Below, piece by piece: positions 1,771 through 17,877 of a stretch of DNA of 42,309 bases; the stretch's first letter is position 1, and each line of letters starts with the position of its first letter. The notes under the pieces are model-generated. The model worked only from the letters and a program-made list of their open reading frames with translations. It had not been told where the DNA came from and made no database searches. This DNA comes from a virus. The position numbers and the translations under genes are program-made. The stretch spans positions 1 to 42,309 of IMG/VR virus record IMGVR_UViG_3300025616_000011. One strand, 5' to 3'.

Positions 1771-2038
1771 GCCTATTTCCAGCTTCCATCAACTCACGCT
1801 CTTTGTCGGTGTACTTTGGCTCGTAAACGCGCGCTGAAATTACCGCGTTCTTTCGCGCCTTCTGCGCGGCATCCATCTTTGGCGAGCTGCGTTTTTGGCG
1901 CAATCCCAGCGCGATGATCTGCCTGTTCGCTACACCTGAATCGCAAAACAAAAAACCAGCTATTTCGGCAGTTGTGAATTTTCCGAACCACTTTTTGATA
2001 TTCGCGTTTTCTTCATCTGACCAGATGCGTTTTTTCAT
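1730..2038 (-). CDS. SANT/HTH-like small DNA-binding protein
   Basis: A 102-residue basic protein. Residues 4-45 (WSDEENANIKKWFGKFT, then TAEIAGFL) resemble Myb/SANT or GcrA-like helix-turn-helix modules that begin W-(T/S)-x-EE. This predicts DNA binding. The start ATG overlaps the RT stop (ATGA) and is preceded by GGAGG at good spacing inside the RT gene, so it is translationally coupled to the reverse transcriptase. Its link to the DGR may be only positional. The target is unknown. Confidence 0.55.
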   Translation of the reverse strand: MKKRIWSDEENANIKKWFGKFTTAEIAGFLFCDSGVANRQIIALGLRQKRSSPKMDAAQKARKNAVISARVYEPKYTDKERELMEAGNRLAQVSWMGVCRVS

Positions 2039-3138
2039 GATGATTTCCTCCGATAAATTTTCGTTAAACTTCCGTTAATCGTATGCCCGCGTTTGCGCAG
2101 TACGTTAGATAGCAAAATTCTTTGGTGATAGCTGTGAGTTGCCTGACGCATAAGCCCAAAGTAGCTATTCGCTGTTTTGTATAGTTCTGCGCTATCGATA
2201 GTGCTGACGCGGCGCATCGCCTCATTGATGGTGCGTTTGCGCATCGTGCGGTGCCATGGCCGGATAACCTGTCCGACAAAATCAACACCGCGAGAAATTG
2301 GCTGCAGGATTGTTTTTGATGGGTTGATGCGAGCGTGCAGCCTATCGCTCAAGAACTCTTCGATCTGCGCTTTGGCTGCGTTGAGCCATTGCGGTGATTC
2401 ATGCAGAATCAGAAAATCGTCCACATAGCGGATATAGTGGCGCGCCTGCAACTTGTGCTTACAGAACTGGTCGAGTTCATCCAGGTAAATGTTGGCGAAG
2501 AACTGGCTGCTGAGATTGCCAATTGGCAACCCGAGGTGCGCTGGGTGGTTTGTTAGCCGTTTGTGCGGCGGCACTAAGTCGAGCATGCGAGGCGACCCGC
2601 GCAGTTCGTAGTTTTGGCGCGGATCGTGAAACAGGATCGTGTCGGCCAGCTGCATCCACCACGGTTCAGTAACGCGCTTGGCAATCAACTCTCGCAGGAT
2701 GTTCTTATCGATACTGACGAAAAAATTAGCAAGGTCGAGTTTCAGGTAATACGCATGTTTGCCCCAGTTCTGAGTGATGCTGCGCACATTCGATTCAAGC
2801 CGTTTTGCGCCGTACAGCGTGCCGCGACCTGGTATGCAAGCGCAGCTATCAGCAATGAATCTGGCGTGGAAGATCGGCGCGAGGCGGTTGTAGAGAAGGT
2901 GATGCACGATGCGGTCGCGGAAGTCCGCTGCCCATACTTCGCGCGGCTTTGGTTTAGTGATGGCAAAGCAGATGCTTTTCCCTGGCTTATATGAGCCGTC
3001 TGATAGTTCATCGTGCAGACCAATCAGGTTGTGCTCAAGATTATGCTCAAAGCGTAGTGCGCTATCTGTATTGCGTTTGTGGCGTCGGCAGTCTTTGTAT
3101 GCCTCGGCCAGTAATTCGATTGAATATCCAGTATCCAT
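2035..3138 (-). CDS. Diversity-generating retroelement reverse transcriptase
   Basis: This 367-residue protein is the error-prone reverse transcriptase that copies the template RNA into mutated cDNA for the variable repeats. Polymerase motifs are visible: KLDLANFF at about 133-140 with the first catalytic Asp, GLPIGNLSSQ at 203-212, and YVDD at 238-241. The IGN-xSQ form of motif 4 marks the DGR family; group II intron and retron enzymes differ here. Length fits the family. I chose the ATG at 3138 because the RT fold starts there (MDTGYSIELLAEAY) and it lies 20 bases after the template repeat. The frame stays open upstream to 3435 through the template repeat, which I regard as non-coding for RT. 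The last gene of the DGR cassette, it overlaps the next gene by four bases. Confidence 0.93.
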   Translation of the reverse strand: MDTGYSIELLAEAYKDCRRHKRNTDSALRFEHNLEHNLIGLHDELSDGSYKPGKSICFAITKPKPREVWAADFRDRIVHHLLYNRLAPIFHARFIADSCACIPGRGTLYGAKRLESNVRSITQNWGKHAYYLKLDLANFFVSIDKNILRELIAKRVTEPWWMQLADTILFHDPRQNYELRGSPRMLDLVPPHKRLTNHPAHLGLPIGNLSSQFFANIYLDELDQFCKHKLQARHYIRYVDDFLILHESPQWLNAAKAQIEEFLSDRLHARINPSKTILQPISRGVDFVGQVIRPWHRTMRKRTINEAMRRVSTIDSAELYKTANSYFGLMRQATHSYHQRILLSNVLRKRGHTINGSLTKIYRRKSS

Positions 3139-3150
3139 AGAAGCTCTCGG

Positions 3151-3235
3151 TTGAATTTGCGGAAGGGGCGAACACGGAACTCGTTGTTCCGATTGTTGTT
3201 GTTGACGTTGCCGTTCTCGAAGTCCACTGCCCACG
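3151..3235 (-). repeat. DGR template repeat (TR)
   Basis: A 78-base core (3158-3235) is shared with VR1 and VR2 and extends to about 3151 on the 3' side. On the minus strand it contains eight AAC/AAT codons in the phase used by the variable proteins, so it reads as an Asn-rich stretch V-NNNN-R-NN-E. AAY codons are the standard DGR design: randomising their adenines gives 15 amino acids and no stops. It lies between avd and the RT gene, as in Bordetella phage BPP-1. It serves as RNA template, not as a protein gene. Confidence 0.93.
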
Positions 3236-3407
3236 ATATTCGAGCTATTCACGTTTTCAAATCGAGGCATTGCTTCAATAAGAAAACTGCGCGGAATCAT
3301 TGCGGCATACGCCGACGATATTCCTGATGCGCATGTCGGTAGGGCGAACCCTAGCGGCTCGACCAGATTCATAGCGCGTTGTCCAAATTGCCTTGGCAAA
3401 GTCGGCG

Positions 3408-3755
3408 TCAAGCGCATTCCGATTTCCTCTGCCATCCGGTAGCCTGCTTCCCAATGCTTGCCGTGATGGCTATAGCTTTCCCATACTGACCATGAGATAT
3501 AAGGCGCAAGTCAACCGCCAGGCGCAGAGACAGATTAACCGCCTCAACTTCCTGCCGCATTTTGCTCAGGATTGGCGACTTGTCCTGCGATGTATTTGCC
3601 TCGTAGGTACGCATTACCAGCCCCATGCAGCGTCTTCTCAATTCAGCGCCGAAGTCCGCTTTATAGTTTCTGGGCATGTTCGCTACGAGTTGCATCACCA
3701 GCTGTGCCAGTTGGTAAGTCGCCTTGTAAATTGCTGTGTCAGTATGGAGTGCCAT
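3408..3755 (-). CDS. avd: Avd-like DGR accessory protein (four-helix bundle)
   Basis: A 115-residue basic, almost entirely helical protein. Segments YKATYQLAQLVMQLVANM, ADFGAELRRRCMGLVMRTYE, ILSKMRQEVEAVNLSLRLAV and QYGKAIAITASIGKQATGW fit the four-helix bundle of Avd proteins, the S23-like family. Avd forms a pentamer that binds the reverse transcriptase and template RNA and is needed for mutagenic cDNA synthesis. Its place between variable gene and template repeat matches BPP-1. No clear ribosome site precedes the ATG; a 15-base hairpin lies eight bases upstream, so translation may be coupled or structure-controlled. Confidence 0.85.
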   Translation of the reverse strand: MALHTDTAIYKATYQLAQLVMQLVANMPRNYKADFGAELRRRCMGLVMRTYEANTSQDKSPILSKMRQEVEAVNLSLRLAVDLRLISHGQYGKAIAITASIGKQATGWQRKSECA

Positions 3756-3763
3756 ATTTTTAG

Positions 3764-3778
3764 CGGGCTACGCCCGCG
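3764..3778 (-). other. DGR-type hairpin/cruciform downstream of VR1
   Basis: The palindrome GCGGGC-GTA-GCCCGC (minus-strand sense) lies six bases past the VP1 stop. It has six perfect GC pairs and no U-run, so it is not an intrinsic terminator. In BPP-1 a GC-rich hairpin just downstream of the variable repeat stimulates retrohoming, and this matches it in kind and position. No similar hairpin follows VR2. Confidence 0.65.
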
Positions 3779-3784
3779 AAATTG

Positions 3785-4201
3785 TTAAATTGATGAAGCG
3801 ATGAAGCTGCGGAAGGGGCGAACACGGAACTCGCCGCCCCGATAGTAGCTGCCGACGTCGCCGTACTCGAAGTCCACTGCCCACGACCAGCCGTGATGAT
3901 GCGAGCGCGTCCAGTAAACGCTGTCCATGCCGCCGTCACACTTGAATTGCTCCCGCGCGTTGACATAGGCCAGCATGTAATCTTCCTGCTCGCCGGTATT
4001 CCAATCGTCATAGCCGTTGATTTCTTTGAACTGTGCGGATTCCGCTGCGGCGAAATTCTTCCCAGTAAGGTCGTAGTCAATACCGGCAGGCGTGACGACG
4101 TAGCGTTCCTCACCGTCTATGATGCGCATGCCACAATAAACGCCGCCTTGTTCTGCCCAAAGTTCGCCGATTTTTGGTGCTGTGATTTTCTTTTCGTTCA
4201 T
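3785..4201 (-). CDS. DGR variable protein 1 (DUF1566-like C-type lectin fold)
   Basis: A 138-residue protein whose last third ends in the variable repeat. The C-terminus reads VYWTRS, then SWAVDFEYG and EFRVRPFRSF, the YW-S/T plus W-x-(V/D)-F-x-NG plus VRP-R pattern of DUF1566 (Lcl C-terminal) domains, which adopt the C-type-lectin fold used by DGR targets. Variable residues are Y, D, GSYY and GG, each at an Asn position of the template. I start at MNEKKITAPK (4201), preceded by AAGGAG at good spacing. It has no signal peptide or membrane segment. It follows VP2 by 32 bases. The ligand is unknown. The longer frame to 4330 is an artefact reading through VR2. Confidence 0.88.
   Translation of the reverse strand: MNEKKITAPKIGELWAEQGGVYCGMRIIDGEERYVVTPAGIDYDLTGKNFAAAESAQFKEINGYDDWNTGEQEDYMLAYVNAREQFKCDGGMDSVYWTRSHHHGWSWAVDFEYGDVGSYYRGGEFRVRPFRSFIASSI
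3801..3885 (-). repeat. Variable repeat 1 (VR1)
   Basis: Aligned with the template at a fixed offset of 650 bases, the 78-base core has 11 differences, all at template adenines. Extending to 3801 adds three more, also at adenines. The flanks GAGTTCCGTGTTCGCC and GTGGGCAGTGGACTTC are unchanged. VR1 covers the last part of VP1. Confidence 0.93.
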
Positions 4202-4233
4202 GGTGATTCTCCTTTTAAAAATTGATGAATGGG

Positions 4234-4797
4234 TTAATAGGTAAATCTGCGGAAGGGGCGAACACGGAACTCGGTGAGACGAAGGTTGTCGTAGACGTTG
4301 CCGTCCTCGAAGTCCACTGCCCACGCACAATCATTCCCGCGTGTGGTGCTAGTCCAGTAATAGTCTTTCGGGTTGAACAGGTGCGGAACATTTGCCAGCG
4401 CAACCATCAGCTCACGGCGTGCAGGCAGATAAAAGTCACAATGCCCGCTACGCTCATAATTCGCAGCTAGGTCTGCTGCTGGGGATTTCCCGCGCAGCGT
4501 ATTGGTGCTCGACAGGCCGTCCCATTGCGACAGATCGCCTTTATGATCACGGCCAAATTCCACCATGCCGATGTCCATTTCCTCGGCGACGATCAGTCCG
4601 TACAGAACTTTATCGTCGCCAAGAATGTCGCCGACATAGATGCCACCCTCTGTTGTCAGGTATTCGCCAATGCGTGGGCGGCGGTTGCCGGTTGCACTGG
4701 ATTGCTGGCGTAGGCTGTCGAGCAGGTTGCGTGCAACAATTTCAGCTGGTAGCGCGATTTTTGCACCGAAGCCAAGATCAAATTCAATTGAGTTCAT
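4234..4797 (-). CDS. DGR variable protein 2 (DUF1566-like C-type lectin fold)
   Basis: A 187-residue protein with a fuller DUF1566 domain than VP1. Residues about 60-85 hold GGIYVGDILGDDKVLYGLIV, then DWNT-like core motifs, FYLPARRELMVAL, YYWTSTTRGN and AWAVDFEDG followed by EFRVRPFRRF at the C-terminus. Variable positions carry D, N, YDNL and LT. The start ATG at 4797 has AAGGA seven to eight bases upstream and follows the preceding gene stop by 23 bases; a further in-frame ATG at 4836 overlaps that gene and is less likely. No export signal is visible, so a cytoplasmic or virion-associated role are both open. It is transcribed first in the cassette. Confidence 0.88.
   Translation of the reverse strand: MNSIEFDLGFGAKIALPAEIVARNLLDSLRQQSSATGNRRPRIGEYLTTEGGIYVGDILGDDKVLYGLIVAEEMDIGMVEFGRDHKGDLSQWDGLSSTNTLRGKSPAADLAANYERSGHCDFYLPARRELMVALANVPHLFNPKDYYWTSTTRGNDCAWAVDFEDGNVYDNLRLTEFRVRPFRRFTY
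4248..4325 (-). repeat. Variable repeat 2 (VR2)
   Basis: Aligned with the template at an offset of 1090 bases, the core shows nine differences: eight at template adenines and one at a G (CGG to CGT, silent for Arg). It differs from VR1 at most variable codons, so the two targets were diversified separately. Confidence 0.92.
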
Positions 4798-4820
4798 GAT
4801 ATTTCCTTGAGTAATTGGGC

Positions 4821-5627
4821 TTATTTTTGATTCCACACGGCGCCGCGCACCGCATCGCCGACTGGAACCATGGCGAACACTTCCGCTTTGCCGACGAACT
4901 TAGCCGCGCGCATGGCCTGCTGACGTGCTTTCTCCAGCGACTTGACCACAAACGGCTTGTGCTTCGGGATGCGGATCAGGAATTGCTCGACGGTGACTTG
5001 CCGCTCTTGTTTTTCTGCATACTGCATAGACTCAAACGCTATACGGGTTATTTCGCCATCCTTTGATGCGACGACTTCTCTTAGGCGCGATGCTTCGTCG
5101 TCAGCTTTTGAAAGGGCGCGTGAGATACGTAGCTTTTCATCTAGCAGTTTCTCGGTATCGTCACGCCATGTTCGATTCTCCGCCTGCGCGCCTGCAAGCT
5201 CATCGTGCAGCCGCGCATTCTCTTTCGCACCATCCTCGACCAGCTTGCGCAGCTCCTCCAATTCACCGGTTGATGCAGGGAAAATCTTATGGATTACCTG
5301 GTCAATCGTTACAGCTGGTTTTTCAGTTGTTAAATTCGGCTTAACATCTGGCGCAAATGGTGAAGACTCCTTATCGGTTGCCGCATCCGACTTGATGCGT
5401 GCTTTGCCCAGATCAGTAATGCTGTAGGCCTGCTTTCTTGTAATCCCGTCCATGCGGCTGGTCAGCAAACCATCCTGTTTAGCCTGATAGCAGTTGTCGC
5501 CAATTTGCTTTTCGGTAAAATCCGACAGAGAATCGATCATGTCCGCCACGGTCAGATCAGGTTTACGCGCGAGCAGGGCGAGGATCTGAATGCGGATGCC
5601 CTTCATTGGTTTTGCGGTGTCTTTCAT
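4821..5627 (-). CDS. Winged-helix plus coiled-coil early protein
   Basis: A 268-residue protein. Residues 8-75 (IRIQILALLARKPDLTVADMIDSL through QAYSITDLGKARI) read like a winged helix-turn-helix with a C-terminal wing. A linker follows, then a long heptad-rich coiled coil (about 120-205). The C-terminal 60 residues are basic (IPKHKPFVVKSLEKARQQAM). This suggests a dimeric DNA-binding protein; the partner is unknown. It overlaps the acyl-carrier-like gene by four bases and immediately precedes the DGR cassette in the same operon. Confidence 0.6.
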   Translation of the reverse strand: MKDTAKPMKGIRIQILALLARKPDLTVADMIDSLSDFTEKQIGDNCYQAKQDGLLTSRMDGITRKQAYSITDLGKARIKSDAATDKESSPFAPDVKPNLTTEKPAVTIDQVIHKIFPASTGELEELRKLVEDGAKENARLHDELAGAQAENRTWRDDTEKLLDEKLRISRALSKADDEASRLREVVASKDGEITRIAFESMQYAEKQERQVTVEQFLIRIPKHKPFVVKSLEKARQQAMRAAKFVGKAEVFAMVPVGDAVRGAVWNQK

Positions 5628-16291: not shown

Positions 16292-16530
16292 GCCAAGAAT
16301 ACAAAATCTCAACCGTCGCGGACTTCCTGCAAGTCCCATCTGATAAGCGCGAAGAATGCCTGATTGATTTTCTTCAGTGGCTCCAGCTGGCGGATAACCC
16401 TGAGCTAATCGAAAGCTTTGCGCAGATGACCGGGGTTAAGGCTGAATTTTTAACCTCTGAATTTCATTGGTTTGATGACGGATTGCGCGGAGTCAGCGAG
16501 ATCGTAATCACTGAAAAGGCTGCGACATGA
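16288..16530 (+). CDS. Small hypothetical early protein
   Basis: An 80-residue acidic protein (STVADFLQVPSDKREECL, then FLQWLQLADNPELIESFAQ). It looks like a compact all-helical phage protein. Four-base overlaps on both sides support translation. No function is recognised. Confidence 0.65.
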   Translation: MSQEYKISTVADFLQVPSDKREECLIDFLQWLQLADNPELIESFAQMTGVKAEFLTSEFHWFDDGLRGVSEIVITEKAAT

Positions 16531-16871
16531 ACCAACGCACCCTAATCCGCGATCACCTGATCCACCATGACACGATCACCCAGCGTGAGGCCAGCGTGCT
16601 GTATGGCGTAGGCCGTCTAGCCGCCCGAACTGAAGAGTTGCGTCAGCGTGGTGACGACATCAAAACCAAGATGATCCCGGTGACAAAGAGCAACGGCGAA
16701 TCAACCCGTGTTGGCGAGTACAGCATGAGCCTGGCACAGCGCCTTGAATATCTGGAATTTGAGCGCAGCACGCTCAAGATGCCGGAGCAGATGGAGCGGC
16801 GGAATGCGCTGACGGCGCAGATTGCTAATTTGCGGACGAGGGTTGAGAGAATGAAGGCGAGAAATGAATGA
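16527..16871 (+). CDS. HTH_39-like winged-helix protein
   Basis: A 114-residue protein. Residues 3-50 (LIRDHLIHHDTITQREASVL, then YGVGRLAARTEELRQRGDDI) match the small HTH domain of phages often labelled HTH_39. Residues about 68-112 form a charged coiled coil (AQRLEYLEFERSTLKMPEQM). A DNA-binding role in the replication operon is likely. Its stop overlaps the start region of the methyltransferase genes. Confidence 0.7.
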   Translation: MNQRTLIRDHLIHHDTITQREASVLYGVGRLAARTEELRQRGDDIKTKMIPVTKSNGESTRVGEYSMSLAQRLEYLEFERSTLKMPEQMERRNALTAQIANLRTRVERMKARNE

Positions 16872-17877
16872 GCTGGCTCTTTTCGCAGGTGCTGGTGGCG
16901 GAATACTCGGGGGCAACTTGCTCGGATGGCGAACTGTCTGCGCAGTTGAACGTGATGCCTACGCCGCACAAGTTTTGGCGCAACGACAAAACGATGGAAT
17001 TCTCAAAGCTTTCCCAATTTGGTCTGACGTGTGCACTTTTGACGGAAACCCATGGCGCGGAATTGTTGATGTCGTTTCAGGCGGATTTCCGTGCCAAGAC
17101 ATTAGCGCAGCCGGAAAGGGTGCTGGAATTGGAGGGGGGCGCAGCGGCCTCTGGAAAGAAATGGCGCGAATTATTGGCGAAGTTCGACCCCGTTACGTCT
17201 TCGTGGAAAACAGCCCAATGCTCACTTCTAGAGGACTTGGAGCAGTTCTTGGAGACTTGGCCGCGCTCGGGTTCGATGCTGAATGGGGTGTGTTATCAGC
17301 AGCCGATGTTGGAGCGCCTCACCTCAGGGAGCGAATCTGGATATTGGCCCACGCCGAAGTCGAACGATGCAGAGAAACGCGGAAATTTCGACATACAGAA
17401 CCCTCGGAACGGTTTGCCAGCGGCGGCAAAGAGATCAGTTTTTCCGACGCCATCAGCCTCAGACGGCACGCGCGGCGGTGTGATGACGGAGAACATGAGC
17501 GGTCAATCATTGACGCAGGTGGTCAACACAATGGTGAGGTTCCCAACGCCGTGCGCGACAGATCACAAAGGGAGCGGGAAATCGGGGAAGCTGCGCGACA
17601 GGCTGGATTATGCAGCGGAGCGCGGAGCGACGAAGAGCAACACCTATGCGACACCGCAAGCGCGGGATTTTCGCAGTGGGCAGACGAGCCGCTGGGAAGA
17701 CCCGAAAAGATCGCGGAACTTGAACGACCAAATTGGTGGGCAACTGAACCCGACGTGGGTCGAGTGGCTAATGGGGTGGCCGCTCGGGTGGACAGACTTA
17801 AAGCCATTGGAAATGGGCAAGTTCCGCGAGTGGCAGAAGGCGCATTTAATCAATTGCGCAAAAGGATAAAAGCATGA
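16864..17877 (+). CDS. DNA cytosine-5 methyltransferase
   Basis: A 337-residue m5C methyltransferase that modifies DNA with S-adenosylmethionine, probably shielding the phage from host restriction. Motifs in order: ALFAGAGGGILGG (I, residues 5-17), GGFPCQDIS (IV, catalytic Cys77), VFVENSP (VI, 112-118), RERIWIL (VIII, 155-161) and GNGQVP (X, about 316-321). The region between VIII and X, where the target-recognition domain lies, is polar and low in hydrophobic residues, as if constrained by the overlapping frame. It overlaps the HTH gene by eight bases and the next gene by four. Confidence 0.9.
   Translation: MNELALFAGAGGGILGGNLLGWRTVCAVERDAYAAQVLAQRQNDGILKAFPIWSDVCTFDGNPWRGIVDVVSGGFPCQDISAAGKGAGIGGGRSGLWKEMARIIGEVRPRYVFVENSPMLTSRGLGAVLGDLAALGFDAEWGVLSAADVGAPHLRERIWILAHAEVERCRETRKFRHTEPSERFASGGKEISFSDAISLRRHARRCDDGEHERSIIDAGGQHNGEVPNAVRDRSQREREIGEAARQAGLCSGARSDEEQHLCDTASAGFSQWADEPLGRPEKIAELERPNWWATEPDVGRVANGVAARVDRLKAIGNGQVPRVAEGAFNQLRKRIKA
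16868..17869 (+). CDS. Overlapping +1-frame protein inside the methyltransferase gene
   Basis: A 333-codon open frame starting four bases after the methyltransferase ATG and lying wholly inside it. It reads MSWLFSQVLVAEYSGA, then TPHKFWRNDKTMEFSKLSQF, repeated Thr-Pro motifs (YWPTPKSND, FPTPSASDG, ATPQARDF) and near the C-terminus LNPTWVEWLMGWPLGWTDL. I recall proteins with these motifs annotated in many phages, and the LNP-x-WVEWLMG-x-P motif also appears in C-terminal parts of phage methylases. Both frames thus carry family motifs on the same DNA. Expression is unproven; it may be an overprinted gene or a widely annotated shadow. Confidence 0.5.
   Translation: MSWLFSQVLVAEYSGATCSDGELSAQLNVMPTPHKFWRNDKTMEFSKLSQFGLTCALLTETHGAELLMSFQADFRAKTLAQPERVLELEGGAAASGKKWRELLAKFDPVTSSWKTAQCSLLEDLEQFLETWPRSGSMLNGVCYQQPMLERLTSGSESGYWPTPKSNDAEKRGNFDIQNPRNGLPAAAKRSVFPTPSASDGTRGGVMTENMSGQSLTQVVNTMVRFPTPCATDHKGSGKSGKLRDRLDYAAERGATKSNTYATPQARDFRSGQTSRWEDPKRSRNLNDQIGGQLNPTWVEWLMGWPLGWTDLKPLEMGKFREWQKAHLINCAKG

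Follow-up and report, generated by a model that had tools for sequence, protein, structure and literature searches.

A phage C5-cytosine methyltransferase gene that probably encodes two halves of one enzyme in nested reading frames

Why does a phage gene for a DNA methyltransferase remain readable in a second frame over nearly its whole length? The gene lies in the window, by which we mean the whole stretch of DNA that was analyzed, a single virus record (IMG/VR) of 42,309 bases. One frame, here called alpha, runs from an ATG at 16864 to a stop ending at 17877 and encodes 337 aa. The original prediction was that the +1 frame is also open from 16868 to 17869 with a start of its own. This was confirmed: the second frame, here called beta, begins with an ATG at 16868, its stop ends at 17869, and it encodes 333 aa. 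We consider it very likely, from comparative sequence analysis, that 16864-17877 encodes a two-subunit C5-cytosine DNA methyltransferase through a pair of nested genes that share one mRNA but use different frames. The genes concerned are the following.

16527..16871, + strand: upstream winged-helix gene (HTH_39), in the third frame (Pfam HTH_39, 4.3e-15; sequence)
16864..17877, + strand: putative alpha subunit, C5-cytosine methyltransferase chain with motifs I-VIII and X, 337 aa (PF00145, 2.1e-31, residues 4-182 only; phrog_363, 6.9e-71; Foldseek match to M.HhaI, E 1.5e-11)
16868..17869, + strand: putative beta subunit in the +1 frame, with an amino-terminal extension, target-recognition region and motif IX, 333 aa (phrog_1008 'DNA methyltransferase', 6.6e-40; relatives; purifying selection)

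A stop-free +1 frame had been judged improbable by chance, and permutation agreed with this. When the synonymous codons of alpha were permuted, the +1 frame contained 5.45 stops on average and was free of them in only 0.01% of 20,000 permutations; the +2 frame of the alpha gene itself contains 19 stops. Permuting the beta codons in turn placed 9.8 stops in the alpha frame, which was stop-free in 0 of 5,000 permutations.

To obtain an unbiased sample of relatives, we used loci picked by a search with alpha alone. A +1 open frame with a recognizable motif IX was present in 78 of the 79 other loci, a count made without the filter on the length of both frames that is described below for a larger gene set, and the sole exception (L083) still has a long open beta frame. 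Among the distinct alpha-selected genes, the beta frame was open through the motif IX region in 59 of 59, and in 56 of them the +1 frame had no stop until the last 20 alpha codons, the remaining three having a longer alpha tail. Another count of stops, in 97 genes, was discarded in favor of the alpha-selected one because its overlap had been set by the first beta stop, which made it circular. Frequent +1 stops among close relatives, which the original prediction had named as evidence that would tell against it, were thus not found. Searches with beta yielded at least 596 related stretches in viral contigs, where at least 80 beta relatives were present, nearly all of full length, and 191 related stretches in bacterial genomes. 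Hundreds of phages and prophages retain the two-frame arrangement. Alpha is broken in a few relatives (L073, L174, L218 and L246), and beta is broken in L018. In L174 and L218 the alpha stop falls directly past motif VIII; in L246 (2500-3261, a prophage of E. coli PCP07014) an internal stop interrupts alpha in the motif VI region, and the gene is annotated as a pseudogene.

Is the second frame also maintained at the protein level? Nucleotide differences between 55 independent gene pairs were classed by their effect in each frame, with bootstrapping over pairs. Sites that are silent in alpha and change beta evolved at 0.06-0.45 of the rate of doubly silent sites, depending on the region. Over codons 2-106, dN/dS was 0.06 for alpha; for beta it was 0.42-0.44, a moderate constraint on its first 105 codons. 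The values were 0.12 for alpha and 0.44-0.45 for beta over codons 106-160. Over codons 160-285, two estimates gave 2.16 (1.29-4.60) and 0.93 (0.61-1.88) for alpha, that is, no purifying selection, and 0.15 (0.10-0.20) and 0.06 (0.03-0.15) for beta. Both frames were conserved over codons 285-322 (0.13-0.20 for alpha and 0.12-0.18 for beta). There is therefore a division of labor along the gene: codons 1-160 are strongly constrained in alpha and moderately in beta, codons 160-285 are neutral in alpha and strongly constrained in beta, and codons 285-322 are strongly constrained in both. The NN/NS estimator was biased low for beta (0.59 in the control), so SN/SS was used for its amino-terminal half. 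Single-chain or partly split relatives served as the control: over their motifs I-VIII, the +1 frame has 2.2 stops on average and gave an SN/SS of 1.54 (95% interval 0.92-4.31), compared with 0.44 (0.36-0.56) for the same measure in the nested family. The codon-level analysis of both frames that had been proposed beforehand thus found the +1 frame constrained, and the lack of constraint that had been named as a refuting result did not occur.

The +1 frame might nevertheless be open through base composition or through the conserved nucleotides of alpha, with no second protein made, and the amino-terminal part of beta does sit on strongly conserved alpha sequence. We regard this as extremely unlikely. 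The chance probability is about 1e-4 in this gene alone, the frame is open in every one of the alpha-selected relatives, and the middle segment, where alpha is neutral and beta is constrained, contradicts it. Both frames are open in relatives and under purifying selection, as in an overlapping gene pair. The original prediction offered true overprinting or some other constraint holding the frame open; the open frames in relatives and the selection on beta support it, and bases 16864-17877 appear to be a case of genuine dual coding.

What, then, does each chain carry? The parts of the two frames are placed as follows.

17080..17100, + strand: alpha motif IV, GGFPCQD, with the predicted catalytic Cys (sequence; invariant in 62 relatives)
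17326..17343, + strand: alpha motif VIII region, RERIWI (sequence; alignment to a single-chain relative)
17342..17737, + strand: putative beta target-recognition region with repeated WPTP/FPTPxxxD motifs, in the frame of 16868 (hhalign together with motif IX, E 3.3e-12, to residues 224-383 of a single-chain relative)
17353..17733, + strand: alpha linker, open and neutral at the protein level, over which the +1 frame is the putative beta target-recognition region (dN/dS by frame)
17744..17782, + strand: beta motif IX-like LNPTWVEWLMGWP, in the frame of 16868 (core invariant or near-invariant in 74 relatives; the equivalent shares a chain with motif X in single-chain relatives)
17806..17826, + strand: alpha motif X, IGNGQVP, in the frame of 16864 (GNGQV invariant in 62 relatives)

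Alpha has the marks of a C5-cytosine methyltransferase, namely motifs I, IV (PCQ), VI (ENV-like) and VIII, conserved in 62 relatives, and a cofactor-binding fold; its predicted core resembles M.HhaI. The earlier description of alpha as having all key motifs holds for motifs I-VIII and X and fails for the target-recognition region and motif IX, both of which lie in the +1 frame. Alpha is consequently not a monomeric C5 methyltransferase, as motif X is on alpha and the other two elements are not. Nor do GNGQVP and LNPTWVEWLMGWP occupy the same bases, as had been proposed. Motifs IX and X lie about 24 bases apart, neighbors in a part of the gene where selection is strong on both frames; alpha reads the bases of beta motif IX as EPDVGRVANGVAA, and beta reads the bases of alpha motif X as about LEMGKFR. 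The AlphaFold model of beta was poor (mean pLDDT 53.8, below use for a fold search), and a beta profile compared with PDB sequences gave no credible match and found no solved methyltransferase.

The probable role of beta emerged from single-chain relatives in actinobacterial phages, in which motifs I-VIII (matching alpha), the recognition region and motif IX (matching beta) and then motif X follow one another in one frame. In prophi104-2 gp17, the first part matches alpha residues 5-170 (E 5e-34; hhalign 1e-35), and residues 214-383, which comprise a PTP-repeat region and the NPRLAAPFSEWMQGWPLGW segment, match beta 149-314 (E 1e-19; hhalign 3.3e-12); the chain ends with IGNGVVP, the counterpart of IGNGQVP in alpha. 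From these complementary matches, alpha is a chain without the specificity module and motif IX, and beta is predicted to supply both. The matches also mean that the DNA order in our gene (I-VIII, recognition region and IX, X) is that of the single-chain enzyme, with the middle segment shifted one base out of frame. The second frame is very probably the missing half of the same enzyme and not an unrelated protein, a point that the original prediction did not notice. Alternatively, beta could be an independent protein that is overprinted on the methyltransferase gene and does something else, for example, as an anti-restriction or regulatory factor; outside this arrangement no relative of its first ~105 residues is known, and selection on them is moderate. 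However, beta 149-314 is homologous to exactly the recognition region and motif IX that alpha lacks, and beta is most constrained precisely where alpha is neutral, which makes a separate function improbable.

The conserved order of modules raises another alternative, in which programmed ribosomal frameshifting produces one fused chain, moving +1 after motif VIII into the beta frame and back before motif X. Such a product would hold all motifs in the order of the single-chain enzymes. However, it would need neither an open beta frame before codon 150 nor an open alpha linker, and both are open in 113 genes. In this set, which is partly conditioned because both frames were required to span at least 600 bases, the alpha frame across the neutral linker has 0 stops where 365 were expected from permuted beta codons; for codons 1-105 of the beta frame, the counts are 0 observed and 185 expected. 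Moreover, beta retains its own start codon, and M.EcoHK31I, an enzyme with a comparable motif distribution, consists of two separate polypeptides (PMC3404938). We therefore consider a frameshifted product quite unlikely. The two open segments argue against it, and it seems that translation of alpha continues uninterrupted to motif X and that beta is translated from a start of its own.

Overall, we favor a two-subunit enzyme and provide a putative mechanism for it. Ribosomes would initiate at two codons four bases apart (ATGAATGA), producing both chains from one mRNA. Alpha would contribute motifs I-VIII, for cofactor binding and catalysis, together with motif X and the unconserved linker before it; beta would contribute a poorly understood amino-terminal extension, then the target-recognition region with motif IX. 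Both chains may then assemble into one enzyme in which beta picks the methylation site on the phage DNA, and the methyl mark may shield that DNA from host restriction.

The start region is itself compact. The TGA stop of the upstream gene sits inside the ATGA start of beta, and the octamer at 16864-16871 (ATGAATGA) is used in all three forward frames, for the end of the upstream gene and the starts of alpha and beta. Of 119 distinct genes, 115 have ATG or GTG where beta starts, and in 97 a start codon for alpha lies exactly four bases upstream of that position. Most of the remaining genes have an in-frame upstream start for alpha or a TTG five bases after the beta ATG; this TTG is the alpha start in one public annotation (an A. 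baumannii plasmid). A Shine-Dalgarno-like core was found in 82 of 113 genes, typically ~5 bases before the alpha start and 9 before the beta start.

Several known systems resemble this arrangement in part. In M.EcoHK31I (YGGCCR), the gene for the small subunit, a protein of ~176 aa, is said by Lee et al. in 1995 to lie inside the large one in another frame. Beta is longer, at 333 aa, starts four bases after alpha and overprints almost the whole gene. The large subunit of M.EcoHK31I carries motifs I-VIII and X and the small one motif IX (PMC3404938), the same partition as in alpha and beta when the two systems are compared by description. Published descriptions place the M.EcoHK31I recognition domain on the large subunit, whereas the selection pattern and homology place it on beta in our pair; in addition, M.EcoHK31I is part of a restriction-modification pair, whereas alpha/beta is an orphan in a phage. 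The best explanation is that the predicted alpha/beta enzyme shares the organization of M.EcoHK31I, except that beta carries the target-recognition region. M.AquI (CYCGRG) is likewise a two-subunit C5 methyltransferase, split after motif VIII into two chains (PMC3404938); however, its second chain holds IX and X, whereas motif X stays on alpha in our pair and the genes are nested. A hidden frame has also been described in the ShiLan domain, an HNH endonuclease out of frame in a phage methylase gene (PMC11855218), but that frame is a homing endonuclease in an insertion, whereas the hidden frame here is probably the enzyme's own recognition half. A two-polypeptide C5 methyltransferase with motif IX on the small chain is therefore known; what is new is a putative beta chain that contains the recognition region and extends over almost the full gene. 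Our literature searches, which covered few subscription papers and are therefore weak evidence, found no description of a nested phage methyltransferase family.

Other phages show further versions of the split. The prophi104-2 gp17 type has the same modules as alpha/beta in the same order but in one frame. Mycobacterium phage Camperdownii gp76/gp75 is an intermediate: its beta homologue is in the +1 frame and starts inside alpha, but the overlap is only ~180 bases, alpha ends past motif VIII, and beta carries the recognition region, IX and X. The Fernvirus (Paenibacillus larvae phage) pair, for example, Bloom gp56/gp57, is nested with the second gene in the +1 frame, and both genes are annotated as DNA cytosine methyltransferase; unlike the window pair, its alpha is distant and its beta starts ~200 bases into alpha and has 234 aa. 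The SEN5 type (Salmonella phage SEN5) is another, distant alpha family; here 63 of 64 genes have an open +1 frame between motifs VIII and X, compared with 0 of 64 for the +2 frame. Several alpha families thus have the putative recognition half in the +1 frame. In a tree built from alpha motifs I-VIII, the window type is distinct from the Fernvirus type, and the single-chain and split actinophage enzymes lie between the two; the SEN5 type was left out of this tree, whose rooting and support do not decide between one and repeated origins of nesting. Two candidates were set aside. Salmonella phage SLP-22 had been taken from its frame for a single chain and is actually a beta homologue annotated as the methyltransferase. 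A Candidatus Megaera plasmid gene (L253, 1296-2321) had been classed as fused by motif search; it has motifs I-VIII, IX and X in the alpha frame and recognition-like PTP repeats in the +1 frame, and is either a further partition of the modules or a decayed copy.

Recognition regions also appear to move between genes. Two relatives, L128 and L130, have first parts that are 99% identical in DNA and end parts that are 89% identical, and the recognition regions of their betas are ~16% identical. Such unrelated regions within otherwise near-identical genes suggest exchange by recombination. We tentatively speculate that the split-frame methyltransferase is a lasting phage design, with catalysis in one frame and sequence choice in the other, found in at least two very different alpha families and in many kinds of bacterial hosts; as the alpha linker runs free, recognition regions might be swapped without harm to the catalytic chain, which might explain its persistence.

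Annotation often gives only one of the two proteins. In the public records that we inspected, alpha alone is annotated in Acinetobacter phage ABMM1, Salmonella phage S9-5, E. coli PT62 and a Leptospira plasmid, beta alone (as hypothetical) in Pseudomonas phage phPA-G, and both in Fernvirus Bloom and Camperdownii. The arrangement suggests that, in many phages and prophages, what is listed as a single cytosine methyltransferase gene codes for half an enzyme and that the annotation lacks the specificity half; if so, methylome predictions made from alpha alone would be wrong. The locus would represent a long, fully nested same-strand pair of ~1 kb that encodes two halves of one enzyme, with selection mapped for each segment and a clear reason on both sides. 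The natural series from single chain through partly overlapping split to fully nested genes is useful for studying the origin of overlapping genes.

As for the setting, the window contains genes for an S24-type repressor, RecT, terminase, tail sheath and baseplate J, and NinB, RdgC and Ref-like nuclease genes adjoin the methyltransferase locus; from this gene content, it is a temperate contractile-tailed phage. No partner endonuclease was recognized among the neighboring genes examined, which is consistent with an orphan methyltransferase. Elsewhere in the window, positions 2035-4836 on the - strand hold a diversity-generating retroelement (reverse transcriptase PF00078, 2.6e-18), with a template repeat at ~3129-3235 and, within two Lcl_C-like target genes, variable repeats at 3779-3885 and 4219-4325; where the repeats match well, mismatches fall mostly at template adenines.
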